DNA from: a virus
Length of the DNA stretch: 64,000 nt
IMG/VR virus record: IMGVR_UViG_3300025083_000017
Coordinates: 1 to 64,000 of that record
Reading direction: 5' to 3' (one strand)
How positions within the stretch are numbered: the first letter of the stretch is position 1; each line of letters opens with the position of its first letter. A program made the position numbers and the translations under genes. This document shows, one piece after another, positions 15,034 to 31,955 of the stretch. The notes under the pieces were generated by a model, which saw nothing but the letters and a program-made list of their open reading frames with translations, did no database searches and had not been told where the DNA came from.

Positions 15034-15845
15034 ATTGGTAGAACTCCTTCACCAGTAGATGCATAGTCGGAAGCCAAGTCCATAACTCTCTTCCTCTTAC
15101 GATTATTTAGCATTTTATCATCTAATAAAGTTTCAAACAAGTGGTCAATATTAGAACCAAGTTGAAGATTGATATGATCCTTTACATTAGTGACTCTATC
15201 AAATTCTTTTTTGAATGCATCTCGTACAACTTGTTTCTGTTTGGGTTGATTCAATTCAAACCAATCATACTTGAAGAAGTAATCTCTTACTTCATCATGG
15301 TAAATGTAAGGATGTACTAGTTTTATATCTCTCTCATTTGACAACTGTTCGATCTGACGAAACCCTGTCACATTATGTGGCATAAAATAATTACGTCTGA
15401 ACTGATCAAACTTTTCTTTCGGTTCTTTGAAATGAAGGATAGCTTTCTTACTCACACCATAGTAACCATCAGCACCAATACCAGTTAAAAGATATGACTC
15501 TTTGATGTGAGGGAAGACATATAAGAAGGGGAAAGTACATTCAAAGTGTGTTTTCTTCCTACAGTCATAGTCTTTGACCAGACGTTTAAAGTCATCTACA
15601 AGATTATCCGTAGGAACAACAATAGTCTCACAGTCCCAACCAAACTCCTTGCTGACTTCTTCAGCTTTGTTTGCATCATAAGACTTATCACCTTCAAGGT
15701 GAAAGGTATATGCAGTAATTTTTTTACCAAGACGATGGGCAGCAAAACCCAAACTCAGACTGTCTACACCTCCAGACAACAAAATCCCCACAGTATTTGT
15801 GGGGACTTTATGAATAATGATATCCTTAAGGATGGTATCAATCAT
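15030..15845 (-). CDS. AsnB-like PP-loop ATP pyrophosphatase
   Basis: The 271-residue protein has the PP-loop SGGVDS (24-29) followed by AYTFHLEGD and TGIGADGYYG, as in asparagine synthetase C-terminal domains. It lacks the glutamine amidotransferase half, so it would need another nitrogen source or does another adenylation chemistry. PP-loop enzymes adenylate a carbonyl or carboxyl so that an amine or sulfur can attack. Coupled with a CmoA-like methyltransferase upstream and Dcm downstream (4-base overlaps), it may act in nucleic-acid modification; that is inference. Confidence 0.8.
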   Translation of the reverse strand: MIDTILKDIIIHKVPTNTVGILLSGGVDSLSLGFAAHRLGKKITAYTFHLEGDKSYDANKAEEVSKEFGWDCETIVVPTDNLVDDFKRLVKDYDCRKKTHFECTFPFLYVFPHIKESYLLTGIGADGYYGVSKKAILHFKEPKEKFDQFRRNYFMPHNVTGFRQIEQLSNERDIKLVHPYIYHDEVRDYFFKYDWFELNQPKQKQVVRDAFKKEFDRVTNVKDHINLQLGSNIDHLFETLLDDKMLNNRKRKRVMDLASDYASTGEGVLPI

Positions 15846-16537
15846 TTAATTGCAATAACTCCAACGAACTGATGATTTCTCCAGAAGATCTGACAGTCTT
15901 TGAACCCTGCAGTCATCACCATATCTCTCAACTCAGACCATGTATTAGGTTTCAACATATCACGAAGTTGTTTCTCCTTATCCATGATTTGTTCAGCAGA
16001 GAAGGTCTTTCTCTTGTAATCATAATGATTAAAGGTAAGAAGTTCTTGAAAGAATGCATTCTCACACATCAACTTCTCGGCAAAGATGAATGCACCACCC
16101 TCATTGAGACCATTATATATCTTATTGATAGTCTCCTGTCTGGTAGTCTTGGGCATGAACTGTAGGGTGAATAGTGATGTTACCAGAGAACAGTTCTTGA
16201 ACTCATAGTTAATAACATTACCACGGACCCATTCTAATATTGCACCAGGGTATTCTTTACGAACCTCGATATGACGTTCTTCAAGATCATCATAGAAACT
16301 ACCAGCAAGTTCTACACCCACATAATGTGCATACTGACGATTAGGGTTGTTACCAATAATCATCTTGGTAAGTTTACCTGTGGAACACCCAACATCAACG
16401 ACTTTAGTATGGTCTTCTACAAAGTATCGTGAGAATGATACAGTGTCCTCTAGAAGGTTTGAGTAACCTCTGATACTATCGTTGATATGATTATCAAATC
16501 CTTCAGGAGAATGTGCAAAAGAAAAGTCGTATGTCAT
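15842..16537 (-). CDS. CmoA-like SAM-dependent methyltransferase
   Basis: The 231-residue Rossmann methyltransferase has motif I VVDVGCSTGK (46-55), an acidic strand end (VGVELAGSF), and FTLQFMPKTTRQ. Its arrangement resembles CmoA, which makes carboxy-SAM for tRNA wobble-uridine modification. The true substrate is unknown, and other small-molecule methyltransferases share this fold. It begins the coupled run CmoA-like, PP-loop, Dcm. No CmoB homologue was seen in the window, so a CmoA role would depend on a host partner. Confidence 0.78.
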   Translation of the reverse strand: MTYDFSFAHSPEGFDNHINDSIRGYSNLLEDTVSFSRYFVEDHTKVVDVGCSTGKLTKMIIGNNPNRQYAHYVGVELAGSFYDDLEERHIEVRKEYPGAILEWVRGNVINYEFKNCSLVTSLFTLQFMPKTTRQETINKIYNGLNEGGAFIFAEKLMCENAFFQELLTFNHYDYKRKTFSAEQIMDKEKQLRDMLKPNTWSELRDMVMTAGFKDCQIFWRNHQFVGVIAIK

Positions 16538-16538
16538 A

Positions 16539-16724
16539 TTACTTACCGTGTGTTTCGTATTCTAGTGCGTCGTCAATTTTTTTGTCAAGTGTTGCAATAA
16601 CATTACGAACATCTACAATTCGTGGTGGAATACATGTGGGGTCAAGAGTATAACCCTTTTGTTCTACAAACAGAGCCTGACGAACTACTGCTGCTTGTTG
16701 TAAATTTAGTTCAAGATTAATCAT
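16539..16724 (-). CDS. Small hypothetical protein
   Basis: Sixty-one residues, mostly helical, with NLQQAAVVRQALFVEQKGY then VRNVIATLDKKIDDAL. The ribosome binding site GGAGGAGA just upstream of ATG is strong, supporting a real gene. It ends 1 base before the methyltransferase start. No function can be assigned. Confidence 0.7.
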   Translation of the reverse strand: MINLELNLQQAAVVRQALFVEQKGYTLDPTCIPPRIVDVRNVIATLDKKIDDALEYETHGK

Positions 16725-16735
16725 AGATCTCCTCC

Positions 16736-17254
16736 TTATGATAGTGCTTTAGAAAGTTCTGCGTTGATAGTCAATGCCACATCTGAGGGAACATTGGCAT
16801 ATTCTGCTTTAAAATTACTGTCTTGAATAATAATTATGGCACATCCCTCGTCAATTTTAGTTTTGCTTTCTTCAATCATAGACACACTTTCTGGAACTCC
16901 ATTACCATCTTCAAACCAAGCAAATTTTCCAATAGACCTTTCCTTAAAAATATTAGGAAGATCATCTCTCCAATCATTCCATTCAGGAGAAAGTTTACGA
17001 CTGACAAATCTTGTTGAAATCATATCAACAATCTTATTTAACTCATCATCATCAAAGAGAAAAGAAAAGTGATTTCTCACAATATCTTTAATTCCTCTCA
17101 AACAACTGCTATTTGGATTCCTAATAACTTGGTCAGCAAGCGCTCTACGAACGATTCTTCTCCAACTCTTACTAAACTCCTCATCAAAAGATGGAAACTT
17201 TTCTTTAAGTTGATCTACTGTTATTTTTACTTTTTTCTTATTTCTTGTAGTCAT
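16736..17254 (-). CDS. Hypothetical protein
   Basis: A 172-residue protein with a basic N-terminus (TTRNKKKVKI), a helical middle with many Arg, Asp and Trp residues, and a C-terminal beta-type stretch (GCAIIIIQDS). AAGGAG precedes its ATG, and it overlaps the mazG stop by 4 bases. No domain was recognised. It lies between MazG and the methyltransferase run. Confidence 0.7.
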   Translation of the reverse strand: MTTRNKKKVKITVDQLKEKFPSFDEEFSKSWRRIVRRALADQVIRNPNSSCLRGIKDIVRNHFSFLFDDDELNKIVDMISTRFVSRKLSPEWNDWRDDLPNIFKERSIGKFAWFEDGNGVPESVSMIEESKTKIDEGCAIIIIQDSNFKAEYANVPSDVALTINAELSKALS

Positions 17255-17697
17255 ACATCTCCTTCTTGACGGTTTTCGGAATACTGAACATCAAATGTTC
17301 CTTCTGGATAACGAGCAGAGAGTTTCTCTACATTCATTGAAAGAATTTCATCGAAGTCAGTGTCAAGTGCCATACATGCTTGTGCCATGTACCACATAAT
17401 GTCACCCATCTCACGTTTCATATGAAAGACATTCTCTTCGGTATATGGCTTACCTTGAAGAAACATTTTCTTTACAACTTCAGCAAACTCACCAGCCTCA
17501 GCAGTCAAACCAAATGCAGCAGTCATCAATTGAGTGACATTACAATCATCTTTGACTTCAAGTTCAGTGAGTCTTTTTGAAAGAGTGGGCCAATCAAGAC
17601 TTGGTTGACTTGTTGTTTGACGAACGAAATCAACATATTTGGTAGGGTCGATGGTCATAGTTTTAGTTGTAATAGTTTCTTGTTGTCGTAGTTTCAT
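17251..17697 (-). CDS. mazG: MazG-type nucleotide pyrophosphohydrolase
   Basis: MazG enzymes hydrolyse nucleoside triphosphates to monophosphates; in cyanophages they are thought to shape host nucleotide or ppGpp pools. The metal site is visible: E67xxE70 and E73 in GLTAEAGEFAEVVKK, and E96xxD99 in KREMGDIMWY. The 148-residue length fits a single-domain MazG. The ATG overlaps the gp41 stop (TAATG), which I take as the coupled start; another ATG at 17658 lacks a binding site. Confidence 0.88.
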   Translation of the reverse strand: MKLRQQETITTKTMTIDPTKYVDFVRQTTSQPSLDWPTLSKRLTELEVKDDCNVTQLMTAAFGLTAEAGEFAEVVKKMFLQGKPYTEENVFHMKREMGDIMWYMAQACMALDTDFDEILSMNVEKLSARYPEGTFDVQYSENRQEGDV

Positions 17698-19070
17698 TAG
17701 AACTTGAACCCTTCAAATGTCTTTTTGGGTTTGTCATCATAAGTATACTCCTCATCCTTCTTATTGTCAAGAAGGTCATCCTGTGCTGTTTGCTCACAAT
17801 CGTATAGTCTCATCTTGGCACGATCAATACCAATCACAAATCTCTTGTAGACGTTACCATCATTGTATCTGTTCTTCAATTGTTTTACAAGTATCTGTCC
17901 CAAGGATTCGAGCTCTTCAGTACTAATAAGGGCAAACATAAGATCAGCAGTAGCAGGGAGACCAAAGGACTCAGAAGTATCAGTAAGCTCGACATCAGAG
18001 CTACCATAACCAGAACGAGTGGTCTGCGTGGCAGATACGATAGGGACGTTTGCTTCGCAAGCCAATCCTCTAAGTTCTTCAGCAATGCTTTTAATAACTG
18101 TATATGAATTAACATTACTACCTCCCCTATACCTAGAGGAAGCACAAATATTGAGGTAATCAATAAAAATAATGTCAGGTCTAAATGATTTCTTAAGAGC
18201 AAGCTCATTGAGAAGTGCGGTAAAGTGTCCACTATGTGCACTCGCGGTTGGGTATTCTTTGATGATAAGTGTTCCTTGAGTCTTTTGTGCGAGGTTTGTT
18301 ACCTTCTTCTCAAAAGTCTGTTTAGGAAGTTCACCTATGTCTTGAATATTTACATTCAAAAGATTGGCATCAATCCTTTCCGCAATCTTCTCTTCAGCCA
18401 TCTCCATAGTAATATACAATACGTTCTTACCAGTAAGAAGAACAGAAGAAGCCATATGACACATAAACAAAGACTTGCCGACACCAGTCCCAGCAAGGGC
18501 GATGTTGAGTGTCTTATTAGGAAGACCACCTTTTGTAATCTTGTTAAAGAAGTCCAGGTCGAATGGAATCCGATTCTCTTTTCTGTGGTAAGACTCATAC
18601 CGCTCTTCGTAGTCTAGAAGATAATCATGACCAACATGATTATCAAAACTTACAGCAAGTGCATCAGAAAGAATAGAAGGGATTGCATCAGGAGCTTTAT
18701 TGTTATCCTGACCGTCTGCAATCTGAATCGATTCCATCAAAGCCAAATAGATGGCTCTTTCTCTACACCACTTTTCAGTGGTATTTAATAACCAATCGTG
18801 GTCTGTTGGTTCGTTTTCTAGACAACTAATGAGTTGAGTAACTTCCTTGAAGTTAGACTCATTGATGTCACTTCTCTTCTCAATCTCAATAGAAAGAATC
18901 TCTTGAGTTGGAACATCATTATACTGATTTACAAAGTCGGTTATCTCCTCAAATACAATCTTTTGATTAGCATCTTGGAAATAATCTGGTTTGATGAAGG
19001 GAATACATTTTCTTAAGAAGTCTTCATTATGCAATAGATTCTTGAGTACAAGAAATTCAACCTTCTCCAT
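17697..19070 (-). CDS. 41: Replicative DNA helicase, T4 gp41-like (DnaB family)
   Basis: Gp41 unwinds DNA ahead of the polymerase and recruits primase. The RecA-like core has Walker A GTGVGKS (194-200) and Walker B FIDYLNICAS, with a helical N-terminal domain before it. A short charged tail (PKKTFEGFKF) follows. The 457-residue length is normal. It overlaps uvsX by 14 bases and mazG by 1. Confidence 0.93.
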   Translation of the reverse strand: MEKVEFLVLKNLLHNEDFLRKCIPFIKPDYFQDANQKIVFEEITDFVNQYNDVPTQEILSIEIEKRSDINESNFKEVTQLISCLENEPTDHDWLLNTTEKWCRERAIYLALMESIQIADGQDNNKAPDAIPSILSDALAVSFDNHVGHDYLLDYEERYESYHRKENRIPFDLDFFNKITKGGLPNKTLNIALAGTGVGKSLFMCHMASSVLLTGKNVLYITMEMAEEKIAERIDANLLNVNIQDIGELPKQTFEKKVTNLAQKTQGTLIIKEYPTASAHSGHFTALLNELALKKSFRPDIIFIDYLNICASSRYRGGSNVNSYTVIKSIAEELRGLACEANVPIVSATQTTRSGYGSSDVELTDTSESFGLPATADLMFALISTEELESLGQILVKQLKNRYNDGNVYKRFVIGIDRAKMRLYDCEQTAQDDLLDNKKDEEYTYDDKPKKTFEGFKF

Positions 19071-20064
19071 AACTAAACTCTTTCCGTGCGATTTGATCTA
19101 ATTGTTCCATCACCTCTGGGGTGAAGTATGTCTCTGGGTCTTTCAGGATTGCCTTGGCATAGACTTTCTTACCGTCCATCTCATACCGTCCAGCAACATT
19201 CTTCCACAGTCCACCAAGTTCTCCTAGCTCAAGTAGACCATAATAACGATCAAGACCACGATGATCGTAATAGAGACGAATAGTAACATCCTTATTCTCC
19301 TTGCTTAAACGCGACTTAGCAGTCTTTGCCTTGATAAGGTTTCCAACGACTTCCGTTCCATCCTTTTCTTTCTTCTTACTGAGATAGATGATAGTACTAG
19401 CAGCGTACTTAAGACCACTACCACCCCCCATTTCTTTAGTAGGAACGTAAGAGCCAATAACATCGTAGGTATGATTGGTAACAATCATTGGAATATTTGC
19501 TTGACCAAGTTTCAATGTTAACATCCTAAATGCACCTTTAACAAGTTGAGATTTAGTCATGTCTCGAACCTGTTTATCGTTCAATGCATCAGTTATCTCC
19601 TTCTCAGTCGATAACATACCCAAAGAGTCTAACACGAACATACAAGGTTTACGTTCGTCTTCTGGTGTCTTCAAATATATATCAACAGCCTGTAGTGCCT
19701 TCTGTCTAAACTGTTCAATTGTTACGACATTCACAACAACCAGTCGTGTTAAGTCAATCCCACGACTTGAAAGAAGAGATTTGTTAACTGCTGCCTCAGT
19801 ATCAAAGTACAGACAGTAACCGTCAGGATTACTGTCCATAAAATTCTTAACCACAGCGAGACTAAAGAAAGTCTTCCCAGTAGAAGACTCACCAGCAATG
19901 GCAGTAATCTTATTCCCAGAAACACCACCAAATATACTACCTGAGACCAGTGAATTAAGAACGTAAGAACCCGTGTCCACATAGGTTTCCGTGTCGTCGA
20001 TGTTTGAGGCAAGTTGGGTATACTCATCACCAATCTCTTTTACAATATCTTTTAAGAAGTCCAT
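19057..20064 (-). CDS. uvsX: RecA-like recombinase UvsX
   Basis: UvsX forms filaments on single-stranded DNA and drives strand exchange for recombination-dependent replication. Walker A is GESSTGKT (58-65), and Walker B falls in CMFVLDSLGML. MGGGSGLKYAAST is the DNA-binding loop region. The 335-residue length is slightly shorter than T4 UvsX. It partners with UvsY, found at 38897-39331. Its ATG touches the gp43 stop. Confidence 0.94.
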   Translation of the reverse strand: MDFLKDIVKEIGDEYTQLASNIDDTETYVDTGSYVLNSLVSGSIFGGVSGNKITAIAGESSTGKTFFSLAVVKNFMDSNPDGYCLYFDTEAAVNKSLLSSRGIDLTRLVVVNVVTIEQFRQKALQAVDIYLKTPEDERKPCMFVLDSLGMLSTEKEITDALNDKQVRDMTKSQLVKGAFRMLTLKLGQANIPMIVTNHTYDVIGSYVPTKEMGGGSGLKYAASTIIYLSKKKEKDGTEVVGNLIKAKTAKSRLSKENKDVTIRLYYDHRGLDRYYGLLELGELGGLWKNVAGRYEMDGKKVYAKAILKDPETYFTPEVMEQLDQIARKEFSYGEG

Positions 20065-22559
20065 CAGGCAAAAAACGAATCAAGGTTTACAGTTTTCTCA
20101 ACATGCCATCCAATAGCATCAAGAATGGTCTTGAGTGGTTCAAGGAAAGCTTTGTTGAATTGTAGGTCATAATCAACGTACTTGTCAAGACCAATCTCAC
20201 TAGGGAAATCTGAAATAAACGAGATTACATTTTCCCTAATAATGTTTGGTTTCTTGAGGTAGATAAACTTAATCTTCTCACCATTGTTGATATAAGAATA
20301 CTTATTTGTCAGACCATACTCTTTAATATAATGATTATATAGAAGTGCCCCACGAACATGAATAGGAGAACCCTTACCGTAGATAGTTGAGTAACTCTTA
20401 TGTTTCTTTACATCAGAAACTGAACGAGGGAATGCAATCTCTTCTGGTCGCATATTATTAAACTTCTTCCGAGAGTCTTCGATGAAATCAATTACCTCAT
20501 CCTCAGTACCGTTCATCATCAACTTAAGAGCATCCTTAATCATCTTTCTACAGGGTGCAGGTGTAGATGATTTGACTGCCTCGATACCCATAATCTTCAG
20601 TTTAGGTTCTGAATATCTAACCCCTTCACTGTCCCACACATTGAGAATGTATCTCTTTTTTGCTGTCCAGATTCCACGGTCTGCAATATTCTCCCGTTTC
20701 ATCTGCATCTTCTGATCGTATGCATTTACATACGTCGCAAGTTCCTGGTAAGACTCCTCAATAAAAGGTTCCAACTTCTCTTCGCAGATCTTGTTAAGTA
20801 TGGACACAACCTCAACCTTATTATCAGACTTACTAGAAAGAAATTTATCAACAATAGGTCCAAAGTTAATATAGATTGAGTCAGTGTCAGATGCAATGAC
20901 ATAATCCGTATCTTGAGTTTGTAATAGGTTATTTAGATACCCGTTTACCTTGTTCTCAATCCATCGAATAGAAGTTTGTCCTGAAAGAGTGATGGCTTCT
21001 GCATTAGCAAGTTTAAAGAAACGAAAGTATTGATTACCAATTGCACCATAACAAGAGTTCAATGCAATCTTACGAGCCATCTGGAAGTTATTGTATTTTG
21101 CGATATCTTTCTCTAGTTGTTTAGTGGGTTTCTTCTCATACTCTTGTTGTGCTTGGAGCATTTTCTTCTTATAAATCTTACGCTCTGCATACATCTTCTC
21201 CATGAGTTCAGGCATAAACCCTCTAATGTCCTTACGAAACATTGCACCATTAGCACAGACTGCATAGTCCTTATACATCTCAAAGGTGATCTCCTTGTTT
21301 AAGATCCTATCAATAGTTGCGGAAGGATGTTTCTCTTCAATCAGAGTCTCTGGAGAAATATTGTATTGCATCATCAGGTGAGGGTACAAGGAGTTAAGGT
21401 CAAACGATACCACCCAGTCATAGACACCAGGAATAGGTTGTTTTACATATGCACCTTCATATCTCTTCTCCTTATCACTTCTATCTCTAGGAGGTACAAC
21501 AATGTCTCTCTTCTTGAGATAATTATAGATGATGGTGTCCCACATACGAACTTGAAACATAACATCGACATAGTTTACCTTAGCATCATATGCCATGGTT
21601 AATGCCAACTCAATCAGTTTCATCTTGTCTTCCATACGGTCAACAAGTTCTACGTCAACAATGTTATAGTCTACAAATTTTTTCCAGTTACCATCATAGA
21701 ACTCTTTGAACGTATTGAACTCTGAGTGGTCCAACTTCTTCTGACCAAGTTCTACTTCTGCGATATAATCTAATCGATACGACTCCTGTGCTTTATAAGT
21801 AAACTTCTTATAAAGTTCAAGATAATCTAGAGTAGTGACCCCAGCAATATCAAAAGTATTGAACTCTCTACCTTTAATAAAGACAGCTTCTTGACTTACA
21901 ATGCCCCAAGGAGAAAGAAGTTTCAACTTCTTGAGTCCCATTATGCGATCGATTCTTCCACATAAGTATGGAATATCATACAGTTTTACGTTCCAACCAG
22001 TTACAATTTCTGGTGGGTTCCGATTCCACCAGGCAATGAATGAGTTGAGCATGTCAATCTCATTTTCATAATGGTAATAAGTTACGTTACTCTGGGATGG
22101 CGTATATCTATGTCTACCCCAGGTTGTAATCTTTTTAGTTGTGTAATCCTGAACAGAGATAGTTAACATCTCTTCAGAGCAAGAATCTGGATCAGGAAAT
22201 CCCTCTTCAGACTTAACCTCAATATCAATCGTTATGAGATTGATCTTTGTAATGTCAAACTTAATCTCATCTTCAGGATAGTTTTCAGAGATGTATTGAA
22301 ATGCATATCGGTCATTACCATAAATCTTGAAATTATCTACGCCATCATACTTCTTGTAGAACTCTCTACAGTCACGAATAGAACCCGGAATAATAGGTTC
22401 TAGATTATCTCCCTCTAATGTTTTATACTTTGACTCTCGGTTAGAGTTAACAAAGAGAGTTGGTTGGAACTCATCTTTGAACATGACACTCTTACCATTT
22501 TCATAACCACGGACGAGAACATTGTTTCCAACCAATTGAATGTTCGTATAAAACTTCAT
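20064..22559 (-). CDS. 43: DNA polymerase, T4 gp43-like (family B)
   Basis: A complete 831-residue replicative polymerase in one piece. The exonuclease domain has Exo I at 112-114 (DIE). The polymerase motifs A (DLNSLYP, 387-393) and C (DTDS, 558-561) are present, with KIALNSCYGAIG before motif C. The RegA repressor, clamp and clamp loader are upstream on the same strand. It begins inside the end of the small Sm-like gene (4-base ATGA overlap), so translation is probably coupled. Confidence 0.97.
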   Translation of the reverse strand: MKFYTNIQLVGNNVLVRGYENGKSVMFKDEFQPTLFVNSNRESKYKTLEGDNLEPIIPGSIRDCREFYKKYDGVDNFKIYGNDRYAFQYISENYPEDEIKFDITKINLITIDIEVKSEEGFPDPDSCSEEMLTISVQDYTTKKITTWGRHRYTPSQSNVTYYHYENEIDMLNSFIAWWNRNPPEIVTGWNVKLYDIPYLCGRIDRIMGLKKLKLLSPWGIVSQEAVFIKGREFNTFDIAGVTTLDYLELYKKFTYKAQESYRLDYIAEVELGQKKLDHSEFNTFKEFYDGNWKKFVDYNIVDVELVDRMEDKMKLIELALTMAYDAKVNYVDVMFQVRMWDTIIYNYLKKRDIVVPPRDRSDKEKRYEGAYVKQPIPGVYDWVVSFDLNSLYPHLMMQYNISPETLIEEKHPSATIDRILNKEITFEMYKDYAVCANGAMFRKDIRGFMPELMEKMYAERKIYKKKMLQAQQEYEKKPTKQLEKDIAKYNNFQMARKIALNSCYGAIGNQYFRFFKLANAEAITLSGQTSIRWIENKVNGYLNNLLQTQDTDYVIASDTDSIYINFGPIVDKFLSSKSDNKVEVVSILNKICEEKLEPFIEESYQELATYVNAYDQKMQMKRENIADRGIWTAKKRYILNVWDSEGVRYSEPKLKIMGIEAVKSSTPAPCRKMIKDALKLMMNGTEDEVIDFIEDSRKKFNNMRPEEIAFPRSVSDVKKHKSYSTIYGKGSPIHVRGALLYNHYIKEYGLTNKYSYINNGEKIKFIYLKKPNIIRENVISFISDFPSEIGLDKYVDYDLQFNKAFLEPLKTILDAIGWHVEKTVNLDSFFA

Positions 22560-22825
22560 TCCTTCACCAGGCTCTCGTATTTGTCTCTCAGTTTACTATT
22601 GGGTTCCGTAATCGTCAAGATTTTGTCCGAGTGAATCATGAATGTGTTTTGATTCGTGATATTGATCAACCAAGGTTGTAATGTCATATTCAAGTCATCA
22701 CTCAAAATAAATGGTTCCGTCATTTTGCAATCAGGATCTCCAATTTCACATGTTATTTCTTCAATCTGTGCTAACAGAATCTGTTGATTCATCAGAACTA
22801 GCACTTTCAGATTCTCTAGCTTCAT
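22556..22825 (-). CDS. Sm/Hfq-like small protein, second of a tandem pair
   Basis: This 89-residue protein follows the layout of the Sm-like family first seen in cyanophage-type sequences: a first strand (LKVLVLMNQQILLAQI), TLQPW in the middle, and LTITEPNSKLRDKY at the end. The invariant GEDVVA of its paralogs is changed to NQQILLAQ. The ATG at 22825 gives GGAG about 9 bases upstream and keeps strand 1, so I prefer it over 22792. It overlaps its tandem paralog by 65 bases out of frame and overlaps gp43 by 4. RNA binding is suggested by the fold only. Confidence 0.75.
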   Translation of the reverse strand: MKLENLKVLVLMNQQILLAQIEEITCEIGDPDCKMTEPFILSDDLNMTLQPWLINITNQNTFMIHSDKILTITEPNSKLRDKYESLVKE

Positions 22826-23120
22826 ACTGGTCTACTCCGTCTTGGTACATTGTTTTTAATTGATTCACTGGTTCAGTAATTGTAACTACCCAGTCAGAAA
22901 CCACAGGAATCACTTTGTCAGAACTTAGTGGCATCCACGGTTGAAGTTGAATTTTAGATGGAACTTTAGCACTACCTTCTACCTGACTCATGTCAGCAAC
23001 AAGTTTTACTCTACAAGGATACTTAAGATAGTAACCAACTACCTTTTCCTCAACAACCATTTCCTGAATATCTGCGACTACATCTTCCCCAGATTTCAGA
23101 AGTAAAAGTTTTACAGTCAT
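22761..23120 (-). CDS. Sm/Hfq-like small protein, first of a tandem pair
   Basis: The 119 residues have the family pattern: KLLLLKSGEDVVADI at the start, IQLQPWMPLSSDKV in the middle, and VVTITEPVNQLKTMY after. A Ser/Glu-rich acidic tail (SESASSDESTDSVSTD) follows. This is the first gene after the perfect-consensus promoter at 23144-23172, so it is probably among the earliest replication-operon products. A crystal structure of a related cyanophage-type protein showed an Sm fold, from memory. The acidic tail is encoded by DNA that also encodes the start of the next paralog. Confidence 0.78.
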   Translation of the reverse strand: MTVKLLLLKSGEDVVADIQEMVVEEKVVGYYLKYPCRVKLVADMSQVEGSAKVPSKIQLQPWMPLSSDKVIPVVSDWVVTITEPVNQLKTMYQDGVDQYEARESESASSDESTDSVSTD

Positions 23121-23143
23121 TTTTTTTATAATTTCCTAGTTTA

Positions 23144-23172
23144 ATTATACCAATAAAAAAGCGGGGTGTCAA
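23144..23172 (-). promoter_or_regulatory. Sigma-70 consensus early promoter overlapping a terminator hairpin
   Basis: TTGACA (23167-23172) and TATAAT (23144-23149) on the minus strand are exactly 17 bases apart. The -35 box lies in the right arm of the hsp20 terminator hairpin, and the spacer includes that terminator's T run. It should drive the two Sm-like genes, gp43, uvsX, gp41 and mazG. Confidence 0.88.
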
Positions 23173-23196
23173 CTGGCAATTGCCAGTTACCCCGCT
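23155..23196 (-). terminator. Rho-independent terminator after hsp20 with an embedded -35 box
   Basis: On the minus strand an outer stem (AGCGGGGT with ACCCCGCT) encloses a perfect inner 9-bp palindrome (AACTGGCAATTGCCAGTT), then TTTTTT. A 3-base bulge (GAC on the minus strand) in the right arm completes the TTGACA of the next promoter. Stable stem plus T run make termination likely. Confidence 0.85.
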
Positions 23197-23220
23197 GTCT
23201 ATGCGACGACGATACTCTAT

Positions 23221-23649
23221 TTAGAGATACTCTTTGCGCTGATGATGTTCTGGAACAACCTTTGTAAGGGTCACTGACAAAAGTCCGTCTTCAAATACGA
23301 CGTTGGAGACTTCTGTATCTTCAGCAAGGGTCCAGGATCGCTCAAAGTTTCTTCTAGCCAGACCCTTGTGGATAAACGTCCCTGTCTCGTCAGATGCCTC
23401 TTTTTCCCCCCTGATAAAAAGTTTTCCATACTCGGTGTAAGCATTTACTTCTTCCTTTTTGAATCCTGCTAGTGCGATTTCTAAACGCGTTTCTGTACTA
23501 TTTACCTGAACTACGTTGTATGGAGGGTAGTTCTGTGTAGATGCGTTGAAAATTCTGGTAAAGTAATCATCCATACCAATAGAATTTCTAGTAATCTGAT
23601 GCATTAGCTGATCCAAATCTGCAGCATTATACTTCGTTAGATTAGTCAT
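23221..23649 (-). CDS. Small heat-shock protein, Hsp20 / alpha-crystallin family
   Basis: The 142-residue protein is an Hsp20-type chaperone. It has an alpha-crystallin domain with LEIALAGFKKEEVNAYTEYG, the conserved GLARRNFERSWTLAED, and EDGLLSVTLTKVVPE near the end. A perfect AAGGAG lies just before ATG at 23649, which sets the start; the longer upstream frame includes the late promoter and is not used. Hsp20 proteins in cyanophages are thought to aid capsid or host-protein folding. The gene has its own late promoter and terminator although its neighbours are early replication genes. Confidence 0.93.
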   Translation of the reverse strand: MTNLTKYNAADLDQLMHQITRNSIGMDDYFTRIFNASTQNYPPYNVVQVNSTETRLEIALAGFKKEEVNAYTEYGKLFIRGEKEASDETGTFIHKGLARRNFERSWTLAEDTEVSNVVFEDGLLSVTLTKVVPEHHQRKEYL

Positions 23650-23705
23650 TTTAAGCTCCTTATTAAAGCGAGTTTGTGTTGTGTGGACCCTTACGGCATC
23701 CGATG

Positions 23706-23713
23706 TATTTATA
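23706..23713 (-). promoter_or_regulatory. T4-type late promoter of hsp20
   Basis: A perfect TATAAATA lies 56 bases before the hsp20 ATG, directly downstream of a terminator. This makes hsp20 a separate late transcription unit inside the replication region. Confidence 0.85.
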
Positions 23714-23720
23714 GCGCAAC

Positions 23721-23753
23721 AAAAAAAGTAGATACAGTATAAACCGTATCTAC
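23721..23753 (-). terminator. Rho-independent terminator upstream of hsp20
   Basis: On the minus strand GTAGATAC and GTATCTAC form an 8-bp stem with a 10-base loop, followed by TTTTTTT. It ends transcripts that pass the first terminator at 23821-23845. Confidence 0.8.
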
Positions 23754-23811
23754 CTATAAGGGTTTCCGACTTTTGTAGAGACCGCACGAAAGGAGTCTCA
23801 CACTTATTTAT
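23754..23811 (-). other. Segment between two terminators with a small hairpin, candidate ncRNA or leader
   Basis: This 58-base stretch has no ORF. A 5-bp stem (GAGAC with GTCTC at 23778-23782 and 23795-23799) lies inside it, and a terminator follows. Read-through of the first terminator would make a short structured RNA. No promoter is evident. Confidence 0.3.
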
Positions 23812-23976
23812 TCAAGACATAAAAAAAGAGGGTGTGGAAACCCTCCTGTCGTTATTTGGATTTTTGGGGTCAAAGTCAGGATCATAGTCATCTTCTCTCG
23901 GATCTATATGGGAATCCCACCAAAAGTATTGGCATTGATCTAATCGTAAATGACGTAGTGGTTTACTGAGTTTCAT
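23812..23976 (-). CDS. Small acidic protein coupled to regA
   Basis: An ATG at 23976 overlaps the regA stop (TAATG), with GAGGAGGG just upstream. The 54-residue product has a basic start (KLSKPLRHLRL), a Trp pair, and an acidic Asp/Pro-rich run (DPREDDYDPDFDPKNP). The last codons pass through the terminator hairpin, so the tail may be a by-product of the terminator sequence. The coupling and binding site support a real gene. Function is unknown. Confidence 0.55.
   Translation of the reverse strand: MKLSKPLRHLRLDQCQYFWWDSHIDPREDDYDPDFDPKNPNNDRRVSTPSFFMS
23821..23845 (-). terminator. Rho-independent terminator after regA
   Basis: On the minus strand GAGGGT and ACCCTC form a 6-bp stem with a 6-base loop, followed by seven T. 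It lies within the 3' end of the small acidic ORF and closes the gp45-gp44-gp62-regA transcript. Confidence 0.78.
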
Positions 23977-24413
23977 TAACCCTCCTCTTCGGTTTTACCT
24001 CTCTTACCAATATTATATTTTTGCTCCAGAATCCATTCTTGTTTGTCCTTATAAGACAGAACTTTAATTTGATTCAGTGGTGCAATATCAAGAATTGAAT
24101 CTTCATTGACTATCGTAATGAGTCCCCAATCAGCAAGAAGCTTAGTAATACGATTCCTACGCTGAACATCGTTAATAGTAAGATTAGCGTATTTACCATC
24201 TAGAGCAAACAACTCTTTGAAGTGAACGATAAAGTACTTACCCTGTTTATGAAGGATATGACATGATTGATACAACTTCTTTTCTTTTCTAGAAGCAACA
24301 CCAATGCGAGTCAGGGTTTCTCTGACTTTAAGAAAGTCATCAGGTTCATTTAATCGGATCTCAACCATTTGGTCTTGAGACCAATCTACCTGAGGTTCAG
24401 CAGTCTGATTCAT
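23976..24413 (-). CDS. regA: Translational repressor RegA
   Basis: The 145-residue RegA binds early mRNAs near their start codons and represses their translation. The match is by size, position right after gp62, and the residue pattern around EIRLNEPDDFLKVRETLTRI, with CHILHKQGKYFIVHFKELF in the centre. In T4 the order gp44-62-regA-43 is the same; here hsp20 and two Sm-like genes are inserted before gp43. Its ATG overlaps the gp62 stop by 4 bases. Confidence 0.9.
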   Translation of the reverse strand: MNQTAEPQVDWSQDQMVEIRLNEPDDFLKVRETLTRIGVASRKEKKLYQSCHILHKQGKYFIVHFKELFALDGKYANLTINDVQRRNRITKLLADWGLITIVNEDSILDIAPLNQIKVLSYKDKQEWILEQKYNIGKRGKTEEEG

Positions 24414-24796
24414 TTTTTTCCACCAGTGTCAAGTCGTTGTTTGATAAAATCAATTTGTTCATTAGATAGTATTTTCAGTACCTGAGATGCTTTCTCATTA
24501 CTATAACCATAGTATTGTTTGACAAACTCTAAATCTGATACCTTTTCCTTTCTAAGCCAAGGAGAGAATCTCTTCCTCTTTCTCAATATATTTAGATAAA
24601 AATTATATTGCATATCTTTATCTAGGAAATGATACTTATTCATTTCATTAGCAAACAAGACACAATCCAAGTGACCTGACAAACATTTATTAATAATAAA
24701 GGGGGGATATTCTTTAACAAGAGTTGAATCTTCTTCGATAAGATTCTCTTTGGTAAAGTTGATTGAATTCAACCAATCCTTCAATTCAGTAGTCAT
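24410..24796 (-). CDS. 62: Clamp-loader small subunit, T4 gp62-like
   Basis: A 128-residue protein located between the clamp-loader ATPase gp44 and regA, the place of gp62. It is shorter than T4 gp62 (187 residues) but typical of cyanophages. Helical content and the stretch LKDWLNSINFTKENL fit the family. With gp44 it loads the gp45 clamp. The call rests mainly on position and size. Confidence 0.78.
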   Translation of the reverse strand: MTTELKDWLNSINFTKENLIEEDSTLVKEYPPFIINKCLSGHLDCVLFANEMNKYHFLDKDMQYNFYLNILRKRKRFSPWLRKEKVSDLEFVKQYYGYSNEKASQVLKILSNEQIDFIKQRLDTGGKK

Positions 24797-24799
24797 ATA

Positions 24800-25087
24800 T
24801 CAGAGAATCAATTTTGAACTTGGGGTTTTGATGGGAGAGAACATCTCTTCATATTTTTCAACTAGTTCGTCATTTACATTGGCAATGTAGACAATCCACT
24901 TCTTACTAATTTCCAGTTCCTTCTCGGTTCGTTTTAGAAGAGGAGCATAAGGAGCGAAACCAAGTTGTCCATCACCTTGATTAAATGCAACGATTGCATT
25001 CATGACAATAAGACTTTCATCTTTATCTTCAAGGACTTCTGCCACTACATCTTCACCAGAAGACATACGAAATACTTTAACGTTCAT
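24800..25087 (-). CDS. Sm/Hfq-like small protein in the clamp-loader cluster
   Basis: The 95-residue protein has the family opening (NVKVFRMSSGEDVVAEVLE), a central LGFAPYAPL that replaces the usual QPW, and a last strand and helix (IVYIANVNDELVEKYEEM). The ATG at 25087 starts strand 1 exactly as in its paralogs, so the longer upstream frame was rejected. It overlaps the tiny membrane-protein gene by 11 bases. The role in replication or RNA control is unknown. Confidence 0.78.
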   Translation of the reverse strand: MNVKVFRMSSGEDVVAEVLEDKDESLIVMNAIVAFNQGDGQLGFAPYAPLLKRTEKELEISKKWIVYIANVNDELVEKYEEMFSPIKTPSSKLIL

Positions 25088-25199
25088 AATTTTGTTCAAT
25101 ATTAATGTTTTGATAATACAAATTGATGGCCATACCACCCATAACCATCCAGTAGATTACAAGCATAGTCATGCCAACTTTGGTTGGAATACTTGTCAT
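25077..25199 (-). CDS. Small single-span membrane protein
   Basis: An ATG at 25199 overlaps the gp44 stop (ATGA). The 40-residue product has a Lys before a Met-rich hydrophobic helix (VGMTMLVIYWMVMGGMAINL) and a polar tail. This is a convincing single transmembrane segment. The gene is too short for usual cut-offs, but the coupled start and clean topology support it. Its role is unknown. Confidence 0.6.
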   Translation of the reverse strand: MTSIPTKVGMTMLVIYWMVMGGMAINLYYQNINIEQNYER

Positions 25200-26143
25200 T
25201 TGAACTCACACTCAACCATGATCTCGGTGAGACAAGCCAACATATTTATCTCTTGGTCCGCAACGAATCCACTTTGAAACTGATACTTAGCAATAATGAG
25301 GACAGCAGCAGCAATCCCAGAACCTTCCAAGTGTGTGTATATAGCATCGTAAATACTACGAATAAGTACACTAGGATCATTGTCCAGATTATCAACGACC
25401 CACTTTCTGACTTTAGAGAAGTCTTTAGCTTTGAGACTCTGGAATAAATTGTCTGTTTTGACATTACTAAATGCTGCAAGAATACCGGTATCAATCTTTC
25501 CACTGACAGAGTATCGTTGTAGTTCATTAAGAACTCGCCTCCAATCAGGAAAGTGTTTCTGAATTAGTTCGACAAGTACTTTCGGATCATATTCCACACT
25601 CTCCTTCTCAAGTATAGTCCTGAGACGGTTGAAAAACTTGGCTGCAAGTTCCTGTCGTTCCTTTCCCTTAATGGCAAAGTCGATGACTGCACATCGGGAG
25701 TGGAGGGGGGCAATGATCTTATTTTTGTAGTTGCAGGTGAAGATGAATCTACAATTGCCAATGAACTCCTCAGTAAACGCCCGTAGGCAGAGTTGTACAT
25801 CTGGGGTTGTGTTGTCAGCTTCGTCAATGATAATGATTTTGTGTTTAGCACTTGACGAAAGCGATACGGTCGAAGCAAAATTCTTCGCATTGTTTCTGAC
25901 AGTATCAAGGAATCGTCCCTCATCGGATCCATTGATGACATAATAATCTACTCCTAATTCATGACAAAGGGCTTTGGCCACTGTGGTTTTACCACATCCA
26001 GGTGGACCAGACAAAAGTAGATTAGGGACTTCACCTTTCTCTACAAATTGTTTAAATGTATTCTTAATCCCATCAGGAAGAATACAATCTTCAATAGTTT
26101 GTGGTCGATATGACTCAACCCAAACAAATTCATTACGACTCAT
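25196..26143 (-). CDS. 44: Clamp-loader ATPase, T4 gp44-like
   Basis: Gp44 is the AAA+ subunit that opens and loads the sliding clamp. Walker A is GPPGCGKT (46-53), Walker B is IIIIDEADN (about 107-115), and FIFTCNYKNKI with LHSRCAVIDF carries sensor 1 and the arginine-finger (SRC) motif. The length of 315 residues is usual. I set the start at ATG 26143 (AGGAA 6 bases before it) rather than the TTG one codon upstream. It overlaps the AbrB-like gene by 11 bases. Confidence 0.94.
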   Translation of the reverse strand: MSRNEFVWVESYRPQTIEDCILPDGIKNTFKQFVEKGEVPNLLLSGPPGCGKTTVAKALCHELGVDYYVINGSDEGRFLDTVRNNAKNFASTVSLSSSAKHKIIIIDEADNTTPDVQLCLRAFTEEFIGNCRFIFTCNYKNKIIAPLHSRCAVIDFAIKGKERQELAAKFFNRLRTILEKESVEYDPKVLVELIQKHFPDWRRVLNELQRYSVSGKIDTGILAAFSNVKTDNLFQSLKAKDFSKVRKWVVDNLDNDPSVLIRSIYDAIYTHLEGSGIAAAVLIIAKYQFQSGFVADQEINMLACLTEIMVECEFK

Positions 26144-26279
26144 CAACTTTCCTCATAATAAAAGAATCACCATTATCAATAAATTCTAACATATCTCCTT
26201 CTTTCCATCCAGTTTCCTGGAGTATTTCTTCTGTGAAGGTTAAAATTCCATCGTCACTAACTTTCAAAGTAGTTTTCAT
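26133..26279 (-). CDS. SpoVT/AbrB-like small DNA-binding protein
   Basis: The 48-residue product (MKTTLKVSDDGILTFTEEIL, then GWKEGDMLEFIDNGDSF) matches the swapped-hairpin AbrB/MazE layout: strand, GILT, helix with ..EEIL..GW..GD.LEF. Such proteins bind DNA as dimers and often act as antitoxins or transition regulators. No toxin gene is adjacent. The ATG overlaps the upstream TGA (ATGA), and it overlaps gp44 by 11 bases. Confidence 0.68.
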   Translation of the reverse strand: MKTTLKVSDDGILTFTEEILQETGWKEGDMLEFIDNGDSFIMRKVDES

Positions 26280-26431
26280 CCAGAGTAATCAATAATAAAT
26301 TTATCTTTCAAGTGCCAGTGAATGTCATCATGCACTTGTTGCATTGCATTGTGTTTGATTGCCCAGTGATCATCATCATCGTTGATGAGGACAGTGACTT
26401 GGGTTTTCACATCAACTCTAATTACTTTCAT
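26276..26431 (-). CDS. Small His/Asp-rich hypothetical protein
   Basis: A 51-residue protein starting at ATG 26431, which overlaps the upstream TGA. It has a beta-type start (MKVIRVDVKTQVTVLI), an Asp run (NDDDDHW) and several His residues (WAIKHN, VHDDIHWHL). The His/Asp content could bind metal, but no motif is fixed. It is coupled at both ends (TGATG and ATGA), which supports translation. Confidence 0.6.
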   Translation of the reverse strand: MKVIRVDVKTQVTVLINDDDDHWAIKHNAMQQVHDDIHWHLKDKFIIDYSG

Positions 26432-26958
26432 CACACCCACTCAGGTTTACGATCGGGAATACGGAGATAGTTATTTTTTACCCATGGTTTAGATGCAACA
26501 TACATTTTATACTTGGTATAAATGTCAACTGTTGTATCATACTTGAACTCATCAGGTCCAGCAAATATAAAAGGAGTTGTTTCTTTACCAGATCTACCAG
26601 TAGGATCTCCAGTTGGTAAGATTTCCTTTGCAGCATGTAAGGTATTGAGACATGTGTGTACTTTACCATACCTTTGTGTGTACTCATCACAAAGGGCAAG
26701 ACCATGATGTAAAAGCCACTGCCAGTTCATCACAAACTCATTTGCCCAGATGGTGCAAGGGTGGTTACGGAAGGCACCTTTCTCTGTGCTGTATGGGGTT
26801 CCATCGGCCTTGGGTAAAGTACCGAACCCATGACCCCACTTATCTGAACAGACGATAGCAAGCATCTGACAGGTCTCTAGAGGCATCTTGACAATGTGCT
26901 TGTCAGGTAGAACCTTGGCGCTCTGCCATGGATTCGAAGAAGTCACGAAGATATTCAT
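26431..26958 (-). CDS. Conserved phage protein with DKH-VKM motif, possibly DNA-repair related
   Basis: A 175-residue protein starting MNIFVTSSNPWQSAKVL. The motif DKHIVKMPLETCQML and later HPCTIWANEF, WLLHHGLALCDEYTQRYGK define a family common in marine phages. Some members are annotated as pyrimidine-dimer DNA glycosylases, but I see no clear T4 DenV-type catalytic Thr or Glu, so the function is unsettled. It starts 56 bases inside the upstream gene; its conserved N-terminus makes that start likely. It lies in the gp45-gp44 cluster. Confidence 0.65.
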   Translation of the reverse strand: MNIFVTSSNPWQSAKVLPDKHIVKMPLETCQMLAIVCSDKWGHGFGTLPKADGTPYSTEKGAFRNHPCTIWANEFVMNWQWLLHHGLALCDEYTQRYGKVHTCLNTLHAAKEILPTGDPTGRSGKETTPFIFAGPDEFKYDTTVDIYTKYKMYVASKPWVKNNYLRIPDRKPEWV

Positions 26959-27412
26959 TACTAAAAAATTGCATCAGGTATTGCACACCCCAGTTTAGTG
27001 TGCCTTCAGGAAAAACGTCAACCTCTCGTTCCAAGAGTTTCAATGCTGTTACAATTCTTTCCATTCCACACACTTGTGCAGTGGCTTCAGAAATTTTCAT
27101 AAACTCAGCATAGTCTTTATCACTACCTTTCTTCACACCATTGACATAAAACTCTCTTGCTTGACGCATGAGTTCTTCAGTTTCTGGCAAAAAAGTAATA
27201 GTCTCTTCTCTAAGAGGTATTGCCATGTTCTTAATACATGACATACTAAATTTCATTACCTCTCGGGTTTGTTCAATTGGTAATGCGTGTTCTAGGCCAT
27301 CACGGAATGCATATTGAATTACTCCATTAGAACATTCCATGACACGAAGAACAGCAATCTTGTCTAACTCGGAGTCAGGAAGATTACCGTATTGTTCTTT
27401 CCAGTCAGTCAT
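26903..27412 (-). CDS. Hypothetical protein in the sliding-clamp cluster
   Basis: A 169-residue, mostly helical and acidic protein. Segments include ELDKIAVLRVMECSNGVIQY and TFLPETEELMRQAREFYVNG. I chose the ATG at 27412, which follows the gp45 stop by 2 bases; an upstream TTG would overlap it. No domain is recognised. The C-terminal 18 codons overlap the next gene. Confidence 0.68.
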   Translation of the reverse strand: MTDWKEQYGNLPDSELDKIAVLRVMECSNGVIQYAFRDGLEHALPIEQTREVMKFSMSCIKNMAIPLREETITFLPETEELMRQAREFYVNGVKKGSDKDYAEFMKISEATAQVCGMERIVTALKLLEREVDVFPEGTLNWGVQYLMQFFSNEYLRDFFESMAERQGST

Positions 27413-27414
27413 AA

Positions 27415-28080
27415 TCAACCAAAGGTAGAGTCGGGTTCAAGTGCGATGTAGTATTGAACATCGTAGTTCTGATTACTAAAACGAGACAACAACTTAGAAG
27501 ATACAACTACATTATAGTTACCAGGAATAATCTTCAGGTTCTCTTCTTTGAAGTTGAATACAAAGTCAGTATCAGTCTCACCGACAATGATAGAGAAGTC
27601 ATTAGAAGTGTCATTCTTCTTGTCACGAGAAACAAGTTTGATAACACCATTCTCACCAATAGCAGATACATCAGGGAGTTGATAAACCGATGCAGCCTTC
27701 TTGAGTTTCTCAAGTTGTTGACTGGTCAGTTCAAAACATACATCCTCAGAAGGAAGTGTAATCTCTTTCTCAGGTGGAGCAACAATTACAGAAGGGTCAG
27801 CAAAGAAATACTTCGAACGTGACTTACCTTCTTTGATGACAACATACTGGTCCCGTTCAAAATCAAGGTCAGGAGAAGAGTGAAGAGACAAACCATTCAA
27901 GAATTGGTTCAGGTCATAGATACCAAAATCTTTAGGAAATTCTTCAGCAACATTAGCTTCAACCAGGATGTTCTTCATCACTGAGATTGAACGCAACTTA
28001 CTACCTTGCTTGAACAAGATAGATTGATTGATAGAAGAGAAGTTCTTAAGAAGACCAACAGTGGATTCAGACAGTTTCAT
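27415..28080 (-). CDS. 45: Sliding clamp, T4 gp45-like
   Basis: Gp45 forms the trimeric ring that tethers polymerase and also activates late transcription with gp55. The 221 residues match the family in length. Typical segments are MKLSESTVGLLKNFSSINQS at the start and FELTSQQLEKLKKAASVYQL at the domain junction. VFNFKEENLKIIPGNYNV comes in the second domain. It begins 2 bases after the DUF3310 gene. Confidence 0.93.
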   Translation of the reverse strand: MKLSESTVGLLKNFSSINQSILFKQGSKLRSISVMKNILVEANVAEEFPKDFGIYDLNQFLNGLSLHSSPDLDFERDQYVVIKEGKSRSKYFFADPSVIVAPPEKEITLPSEDVCFELTSQQLEKLKKAASVYQLPDVSAIGENGVIKLVSRDKKNDTSNDFSIIVGETDTDFVFNFKEENLKIIPGNYNVVVSSKLLSRFSNQNYDVQYYIALEPDSTFG

Positions 28081-28082
28081 AA

Positions 28083-28517
28083 TTAAAATGTTTCGTAGTT
28101 ACCTTTAGGTTGCTTGTTAATACCAGAAAAATGGTAGAGAAGAATACAATAGTGTATTGCCTTCAGAATGTCCATCTTTGACTTTCCACCCTTCTTACCG
28201 AAGCGGGAAAGATACTTAATAGCATTAGATCTACAGAAAGCTTCTGCGTCACCAATACTATCAATCAGATCGAGTGTTTGAGTCTTAGACTCTTTAGAAG
28301 TATAGTGAGATTGATAAGTCCCTGACAAGTAATCACGAACTTCTTTTAATGCAATGTCTTCGTTGTACTTCCAAAAATGTACTGGTTCAAGATTTAATTT
28401 AATCTCATTAGATTCGGTCAATTCAATTTTGTCCTCATTAGAAACAAGAGGGGTCCATTCGTACCCCTCCTCTGGTAAAGAATTCATGTGATCATATAAT
28501 AAACTCCATGCGTTCAT
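28083..28517 (-). CDS. DUF3310-type protein
   Basis: The C-terminal half of this 144-residue protein has SHYTSKESKTQTLDLIDSIG, then CRSNAIKYLSRFGKKGG and DILKAIHYCILLYHF. The Y-I-D-L..., NAIKYL.R.GKK, D..KA.HY pattern is that of DUF3310, sometimes called a phage nucleotide-kinase family and related to T7 gp1.7. The ATG at 28517 is preferred, with GAGGAGG 12 bases upstream in the cobS 3' end. A role in nucleotide metabolism is possible but not shown here. Confidence 0.75.
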   Translation of the reverse strand: MNAWSLLYDHMNSLPEEGYEWTPLVSNEDKIELTESNEIKLNLEPVHFWKYNEDIALKEVRDYLSGTYQSHYTSKESKTQTLDLIDSIGDAEAFCRSNAIKYLSRFGKKGGKSKMDILKAIHYCILLYHFSGINKQPKGNYETF

Positions 28518-28521
28518 TCTA

Positions 28522-29601
28522 TCAAGTATCCTCCTCAGTGTCAACTTTCATCTCAAAATCAGCGTCTACTTTATCATAAAGTTCCAAGAAGGAGGACTTA
28601 GTTTCATCATCAAAACGATTGATACAAACTTGAATTGCTTTACTCTTGTCACCAAAGATACTGTAAGCACGAACGATGTGAATCAAACGACGGGTTGAGA
28701 TAACATCTTCAATACCACCATCGTAGAATGTCTTACGAATGATATCAGCCCAGTCACAGAGATGCTTACAGAACTGTCGGTCTTCAATACTAAGGTCTAG
28801 AGCAATTCCTTCTAGAATTCTCTGTTCAGTCTTGACCGTTGGATACTCTTGTTCGAGAGTAATACAGAAACGTTCTAAGAATGCCTCATTAAGAACATTG
28901 GTTCCAATAAAACGACCGTCATCGCTGCCTTTACCTTTAGTATTTGCAGTTGCAACAACATTGAATCCCTCCTTGGGTTGTACAAACTTACCGGTCTTCT
29001 TCAAGAAAACACCTTTACCTTCAAGAATAGATTGAAGACATAGGATTTTATTAGATGCCAGGTCAACTTCATCTAGAAGCAACACTGCTCCACGTTCCAG
29101 AGCCTCGATGACTGGACCGTTATGCCAAACAGTTTCGCCATTAACAAGACGAAAGCCACCAATAAGATCGTCTTCGTCAGTCTCGATAGTAATATTGACA
29201 CGGATTAGTTCTCTCTTGAGTTGGGCACAAGCCTGTTCAACCAAGAAAGTTTTACCATTACCAGAAAGACCCGTGATAAACGATGGATAGAATAGACGAG
29301 ACTGAATAATCTTTTTGATGTCTGTAAAATTACCAAACTTGACGAAGGTATCGTCTTTTGCTGGAACTAGATCTTGTTCTCCTACAGGAGTTGCAGGAGT
29401 TGCGTGATAGGTTTGTTCTAGTTGTTCTTGAACGGTAAGATTCCACTTGCCGCGACCAGTCTTATATTCGTCTAGTTTTTTAGTCACAGTCTGATAGTTG
29501 CAGTCATTCATTGAACACCAGGCACGAAGGTCACCAGAAGTAACATTTTCGCCATACAGTGATTGAAGAGAAGTGACTACGTATTCTTTTGATAGTGCCA
29601 T
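28522..29601 (-). CDS. cobS: CobS-type AAA+ ATPase
   Basis: Residues 1-60 of 359 are a helical DNA-binding-like domain typical of the cyanophage CobS version (SLYGENVTSGDLRAWC). The MoxR-type AAA+ core has Walker A GLSGNGKT, Walker B AVLLLDEVDLAS, and FNVVATANTKG as sensor region. In bacteria CobS works with CobT and CobN to insert cobalt in B12; phage copies lack CobN. The neighbouring zincin/VWA protein would serve as the CobT-like partner. I set the start at ATG 29601; the upstream TTG-ATG region lacks family similarity. Confidence 0.9.
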   Translation of the reverse strand: MALSKEYVVTSLQSLYGENVTSGDLRAWCSMNDCNYQTVTKKLDEYKTGRGKWNLTVQEQLEQTYHATPATPVGEQDLVPAKDDTFVKFGNFTDIKKIIQSRLFYPSFITGLSGNGKTFLVEQACAQLKRELIRVNITIETDEDDLIGGFRLVNGETVWHNGPVIEALERGAVLLLDEVDLASNKILCLQSILEGKGVFLKKTGKFVQPKEGFNVVATANTKGKGSDDGRFIGTNVLNEAFLERFCITLEQEYPTVKTEQRILEGIALDLSIEDRQFCKHLCDWADIIRKTFYDGGIEDVISTRRLIHIVRAYSIFGDKSKAIQVCINRFDDETKSSFLELYDKVDADFEMKVDTEEDT

Positions 29602-29640
29602 GATGTATGTGGTGTGGTCAACAAAGCTAATATAGTCCAA

Positions 29641-29664
29641 AACCACTCGTAACGGTGAGTGGTT
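29641..29664 (-). other. Hairpin between VWA gene and cobS
   Basis: On the minus strand AACCACTC and GAGTGGTT form an 8-bp stem with an 8-base loop. It is followed by TTGGAC rather than a T run, so it may be a weak terminator, attenuator or mRNA-stability element. Confidence 0.45.
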
Positions 29665-29683
29665 GGGACAGTTGTCAATCTGG

Positions 29684-31834: not shown

Positions 31835-31899
31835 AGTATATAACAAAACCCAACCAAAAAATGGATGGGTCGTACAGTTCTATTATTGGCATATAGACC

Positions 31900-31930: not shown

Positions 31931-31955
31931 TTGGTTTTAAACTCCTTGATCGTTT

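Follow-up and report, generated by a model that had tools for sequence, protein, structure and literature searches.

A conserved cyanophage cassette that resembles a late small-RNA gene and whose terminator hairpin often overlaps a predicted sigma70-type promoter

Genes and features of the locus

The window (the whole stretch of 64,000 nucleotides analysed, from IMG/VR virus record IMGVR_UViG_3300025083_000017) contained on its minus strand an hsp20 gene followed by an operon. The first operon gene encoded a DUF6561 protein (called "Sm-like" in the first-pass annotation), and was followed in order by genes for a second DUF6561 protein, gp43 and uvsX. The features of this junction were as follows.

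23706..23713, minus strand: TATAAATA, T4-type late-promoter-like box ahead of hsp20, 56 nt before its start codon
23221..23649, minus strand: hsp20, 142 aa (PF00011, phrog_432), the gene ended by the predicted terminator
23218..23224, minus strand: CTAAATA, a box resembling T4-type late promoters, which shares bases with the stop codon of hsp20 (23223-23221)
23203..23214, minus strand: TATCGTCGTCGC, the tag (family form TATCGTCGNCGC), where a short late RNA is predicted to begin
23160..23196, minus strand: terminator hairpin with an 8-bp lower stem, a 7-bp upper stem, an AATT loop and a 3-nt bulge in the right arm
23196-23189 with 23167-23160, minus strand: lower stem, AGCGGGGT paired with ACCCCGCT
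23188-23182 with 23177-23171, minus strand: upper stem, AACTGGC paired with GCCAGTT
23168..23170, minus strand: GAC bulge of the right arm, without a left-arm partner, completing TTGACA
23167..23172, minus strand: −35 hexamer TTGACA, inside the right arm of the stem
23155..23160, minus strand: T6 run, the U-tract of the terminator, within the promoter spacer
23144..23149, minus strand: −10 hexamer TATAAT, 17 nt from the −35 (12/12 promoter match)
22761..23120, minus strand: gene for a 119-aa DUF6561 protein (phrog_431; Pfam, PHROGs), the first in the downstream operon

Three small DUF6561 proteins (phrog_431, 483 and 527, at 22764-23120, 22556-22825 and 24800-25090) were encoded around hsp20 and gp43, and are probably a small paralogous family. 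Two more terminator-like hairpins (23755-23726 and 23847-23826, minus strand) were seen just upstream of hsp20 near TATAAATA, the second of which gave a weak match (23805-23870) to the covariance model described below.

Overlap of a terminator and a promoter

The minus-strand sequence from 23196 to 23144, AGCGGGGTAACTGGCAATTGCCAGTTGACACCCCGCTTTTTTATTGGTATAAT, reads as an intrinsic terminator that shares bases with a promoter. The hairpin region folded at −25.9 kcal/mol (z = −6.2), and no shuffled sequence folded equally well. As in intrinsic terminators, the hairpin was G+C-rich and a U-tract came directly after it; when the plus strand was also checked, a T run was present only on the minus-strand side, indicating an oriented terminator. 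The right arm was ordered GCCAGTT-GAC-ACCCCGCT. The TTGACA-17-TATAAT arrangement is that of a sigma70-type promoter, and TG at 23152-23151 (minus strand) made its −10 an extended one. The first-pass annotation had claimed that terminator and promoter share bases, that the bulge completes TTGACA and that the T run lies in the promoter spacer; all of this was borne out base for base, with GAC at 23170-23168 (minus strand) unpaired and part of the −35, and T6 at 23160-23155 within the 17-nt spacer. Judged from these signals, transcripts would start at the predicted promoter position and terminate at the hairpin. The annotation's further idea, that the hairpin stops late read-through from hsp20, fits the predicted layout because hsp20 has its own TATAAATA box. 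Polymerases on the two signals may, as the annotation also proposed, interfere with one another.

The site in the hairpin was the sole 12/12 promoter match within 15000-32000. Perfect TTGACA-(16-18)-TATAAT sites numbered three in the 64 kb, compared with 0.1 expected from Markov-1 sequences, and the other two lay outside terminator hairpins. One perfect TTGACA-TATAAT match, at 657 (minus strand) and outside any hairpin, also had TG ahead of its −10.

Conservation and covariation of the hairpin

Relatives were gathered by way of the hsp20 and DUF6561 proteins, by a hairpin-containing pattern, and by a pattern without hairpin or −35. A blastn search showed that no other part of the region was as widely conserved as the element itself (~290 cyanophage records). 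In an alignment of 79 cassettes, 91.1% of cells held standard pairs, and double changes were found at 11 of the 14 pairs; none of 500 shuffles reached the pairing score of the alignment, which dropped sharply when the pairing was slid. The bulge, whose conservation across related cyanophages had been proposed as a check, was kept (G in 76/79, A in 77/79 and C in 77/79), these figures being inflated because CCANTNGACA was part of the pattern by which the hairpin-pattern loci had been chosen.

Late-type box and near-invariant tag ahead of the hairpin

On sequence comparison, the conserved unit is a cassette of ~90 bp comprising NTAAATA, TATCGTCGNCGC, the terminator hairpin and an optional sigma70-type promoter. 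The combined terminator/promoter of the first-pass annotation was real as an overlap, but its frame was too small and missed the more conserved upstream half. TATCGTCGNCGC was near invariant and was the most invariant block in the alignment of 79 cassettes; it was better conserved than either promoter hexamer and persisted where the promoter was lost. Almost all cassettes had both box and tag ahead of the hairpin. The gap between the two was usually 3–9 nt in the family, with a mode of 8 (3 nt in the window), and that between tag and hairpin varied from 0 to 14 nt.

The 14-mer GAATATCGTCGNCGC occurred at 115 sites in viral contigs, 92 of them with TAAATA just upstream. A hairpin and T run lay downstream in all 92, although neither hairpin nor −35 had been a criterion of the scan; the other 23 sites were in unrelated sequence without this layout. 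Among 80 hsp20-anchored loci, a set picked without any motif, the tag was found downstream in 65 (the pattern count was 70, five of which, with TATCGTTGGTGG, look like chance).

The boxes of the family were ATAAATA or CTAAATA. The CTAAATA of the window differed from the exact published late consensus (NATAAATA/TATAAATA; PMC2984593), of which NATAAATA is the late promoter described for S-PM2 (PMC2984593). [AC]TAAATA was enriched ~5-fold between genes in four complete phages, an enrichment to which TAA stop codons may contribute partly. NTAAATA was not a by-product of the hsp20 stop codon, since the box persisted where the upstream gene was different.

The tag was mostly unpaired in the predicted RNA (mean unpaired probability 0.83). 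A coding function for it is unlikely, as the cassettes had no shared start codon and linkers of arbitrary length. Antisense targeting of phage genes by the tag found no support: the complementary 8-mer CGACGATA had no conserved site, and no shared target in start regions, in four complete phages. A sense match to the tag inside psbA (ATCGTCGCCGC, part of D1) was taken as coincidence because the N position of the tag varies.

Some variant cassettes were seen. Loci L029 and L030 had a small hairpin (e.g. TTTGGGTTATCCCAAA) inserted between the late box and the tag. In L357 and L393 the tag and a small hairpin were followed by TATAAT and then by a second, stronger terminator; this TATAAT is possibly the promoter for another very short RNA.

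Presence of the promoter and of the bulge

Under the script criteria used, hairpin and T run were present in all of 207 distinct cassettes. In 184 of them a sigma70-type promoter began within the right arm, with a spacer of 17 nt in 173; the other 23 had none. A right-arm excess of at least 2 nt accompanied 170/184 promoters, compared with 4/23 promoterless cassettes, in most of which the bulge was down to 0–1 nt (Fisher test, 1.5e-14 raw, 0.0025 over 29 sequence clusters and 0.023 over 23 clusters not chosen with the TTGACA pattern). The asymmetry of the stem thus tracked the promoter, as expected from the claim that the bulge belongs with TTGACA.

Homologues that keep the hairpin and lack TTGACA, which the first-pass annotation had named as evidence against its proposal, were found: Syn9 (GGGGACGACTGG...CCAGTCAGTCCCC), S-PM2, S-RSM4, S-CAM7 and others kept box, tag and hairpin, with TTGACA absent. 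Because such homologues exist, the promoter is not the reason for the conservation of the element. It would rather be an overlay on another function, most simply a late small RNA of ~50–60 nt. In seven of the 23 promoterless members another late-type box lay no more than 20 nt beyond the T run, so the first box appears unneeded for the downstream gene.

Copy number, occurrence and genomic positions

The box-tag pattern had exactly one match in 18 of 25 genomes (none for a reversed-pattern control), and a search with the consensus matched 295 places in as many records, all of them from cyanophages or marine viruses. With a covariance model, most of 18 phages showed a single strong match and T4 showed none. 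Since P-SSM2, P-SSM4, P-HM1 and S-SSM7 had no confident copy, the cassette is not universal; ACG-2014f had a diverged copy. A search for box plus tag in 84,980 genomes of bacteria and archaea gave no hit.

The cassette lay between hsp20 and the gp43 operon in the window, Bellamy (136401-136490) and RB11-B, upstream of psbA in Syn19 (166135-166225), WH25-B, S-RS29, Syn9 (164121-164202) and S-RSM4, and upstream of psbD in S-MbCM25; other copies adjoined hli genes. The element is not confined to the hsp20/gp43 junction considered in the first-pass annotation, being upstream of psbA in many phages. In S-PRM1 it came after psbA and ahead of a tail fibre gene. At this locus (L450, 1501-1560), as in L316, the cassette was at the psbA 3′ end and the following tail fibre gene had its own CTAAATA box. 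The S-PM2 cassette (124958-125037) came after hli03 and faced a convergent structural gene, with no co-directional gene next to it, which argues that the upstream box serves a short RNA and not a next gene.

Interpretation and alternatives

We favour, with moderate confidence, the reading that this single-copy cassette of Synechococcus T4-like phages is a late small-RNA gene whose terminator was co-opted for a sigma70-type promoter in most members. At the level of sequence it has what is expected of a small-RNA gene: a conserved intergenic unit, a promoter-like box, a terminator, covariation and no evident coding capacity. The hairpin and T run would end late transcripts arriving through hsp20. 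A second late transcript of ~50–60 nt would begin at the cassette's own NTAAATA box, with its start ~6 nt downstream of the box, carry the mostly unpaired tag and end at the hairpin, so that box, tag and hairpin together would form the small-RNA gene. In most members, including the window, a sigma70-type promoter would have recruited the right arm of the terminator as its −35, with GAC coming from the 3-nt bulge, the U-tract serving as spacer and an extended −10 coming after. Polymerase with the sigma factor of the host could then start the downstream operon (DUF6561-gp43-uvsX in the window) on its own. This promoter may be early, as the first-pass annotation had it, or middle in its timing; in a 2016 study of Syn9, Doron and colleagues reportedly found middle genes under host-like sigma70 promoters. 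Against the small-RNA reading weigh the 3-nt gap between box and tag in the window where 8 nt is usual, the possible share of TAA stop codons in the [AC]TAAATA enrichment, the lack of a conserved target site for the tag in the four phages scanned, the genomes with no confident copy and the absence of an Rfam match. More tentatively, and with rather less confidence, we suggest that marine Synechococcus T4-like phages share one conserved late small RNA of ~50–60 nt, with an unpaired block of invariant sequence, AUCGUCGNCGC, at its 5′ end and with a terminator on which a sigma70-type promoter was repeatedly overlaid, so that the 3′ end of the RNA and the start signal of the gp43 or psbA-proximal operon would occupy the same DNA.

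The same layout could also be pure punctuation of the PeSL kind (see below), a terminator for the upstream gene joined to a promoter for the next one, with NTAAATA and the tag incidental or serving recombination between phages. Terminators with a −35-like hexamer, a T-run spacer and a −10 do recur at unrelated junctions, TATAAT-like −10s cluster 0–19 nt after terminator stems (66 sense vs 15 antisense), and the cassette itself occupies several genomic positions. Such punctuation does not, however, account for a tag that is conserved better than the promoter hexamers and survives promoter loss, nor for one copy per genome in place of a repeated cassette, and we consider it unlikely, though with a real chance of being right. 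It is quite improbable that NTAAATA drives the downstream operon late, with tag and hairpin as a regulated 5′ leader choosing between termination and read-through, so that expression would be both middle and late. For S-PM2 and Syn9, middle-type genes have been proposed to have an early as well as a late promoter ahead of them (PMC2984593), and expression in both phases would benefit gp43 and the psbA region; yet S-PM2 lacks a co-directional downstream gene, in several members the T run is immediately followed by another late-type box, and a non-systematic look revealed no conserved antiterminator pairing.

If the tag were bound as DNA by a protein of phage or host and were not an RNA 5′ end, its fixed sequence and the box-tag spacing of mostly 8 nt would be explained. 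The small hairpin between late box and tag in L029 and L030, the tag-hairpin spacing of 0–14 nt and the lack of dyad symmetry speak against such a site, which we regard as very improbable. Lone promoters and terminators do exist elsewhere, so that the two might have coincided by chance in one genome; the probability of this is negligible, the overlap being conserved with constant geometry in 184 distinct cassettes.

Should the RNA be made as the late small-RNA reading predicts, ~300 sequenced cyanophages and many more contigs would share a late-expressed RNA gene overlooked by annotation, adjoining viral genes for DNA replication or photosynthesis. With or without an RNA, the cassettes are a clear comparative example of promoter evolution within a terminator, with a bulge that comes and goes with the promoter. 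The overlap would be a simple way to end one temporal class and begin the next with almost no intergenic DNA.

Comparison with known systems

In the literature searched, which covered PeSLs through PMC4503421, no description of the cassette was found, and a prior description may exist; what is present in ~300 sequenced cyanophages looks like an undescribed small-RNA gene. No Rfam family matched the cassette at its gathering score. The Rfam cyanophage RNAs wcaG, PhotoRC-II, manA and glnA are likewise conserved noncoding RNAs of cyanomyoviruses, but none of their models fits it. RNAs of the wcaG and PhotoRC-II families were present within ~1 kb of the cassette in the 3-kb loci of Syn9 and S-RSM4 (L292, 564-658; L294, 587-683). 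CfrI of S-PM2 is an antisense RNA of ~225 nt, antisense to psbA (PMC2984593), whereas the RNA of the cassette is predicted to be ~50–60 nt.

The dual early/late promoters of middle genes in S-PM2 and Syn9 (PMC2984593) likewise place a sigma70-type and a NATAAATA-type promoter ahead of one gene; in the cassette, the two are separated by a terminator, and the late box is kept even without a following gene. Puxty 2018 (PMC5931967) described −35, −10 and gp55-type boxes upstream of cyanomyoviral psbA and, within the psbA 5′ UTR of S-PM2, an inverted repeat of 36 bp. Those motifs are directly upstream of psbA, whereas the S-PM2 cassette is at 124958-125037, after hli03.

Overlap of a terminator and a promoter was also found, with other hairpins, at unrelated junctions, and so appears to be a habit of cyanophage genomes. 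Examples are Bellamy 184242, Bellamy 59980, Syn19 44078 and S-PM2 124323, where unrelated terminators had a TTGACA-like −35 in the loop or right arm, their T run as spacer and a −10 beyond it.

The closest known kind, to judge from the account in PMC4503421, is the PeSL (promoter early stem-loop), a composite promoter-terminator motif of T4-type phages (Arbiol 2010 and Comeau 2014, cited in PMC4503421). Like a PeSL as described there, the cassette is a gene-junction element in which a terminator stem-loop and a sigma70-type promoter are combined. PeSLs are regarded as mobile regulatory cassettes with many similar copies per genome that mediate gene shuffling by recombination; the present cassette had one copy per genome, at several positions in different phages: after hsp20, upstream of or after psbA, and after hli03. 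In the S-PM2 region studied by Puxty et al., candidate early promoters and stem-loops were few and PeSL-driven shuffling was judged unlikely (PMC4503421). Compared with PeSLs as known from that paper, the cassette is distinguished by what precedes its hairpin, namely a box of the late type and the invariant tag, and by a promoter that is dispensable.
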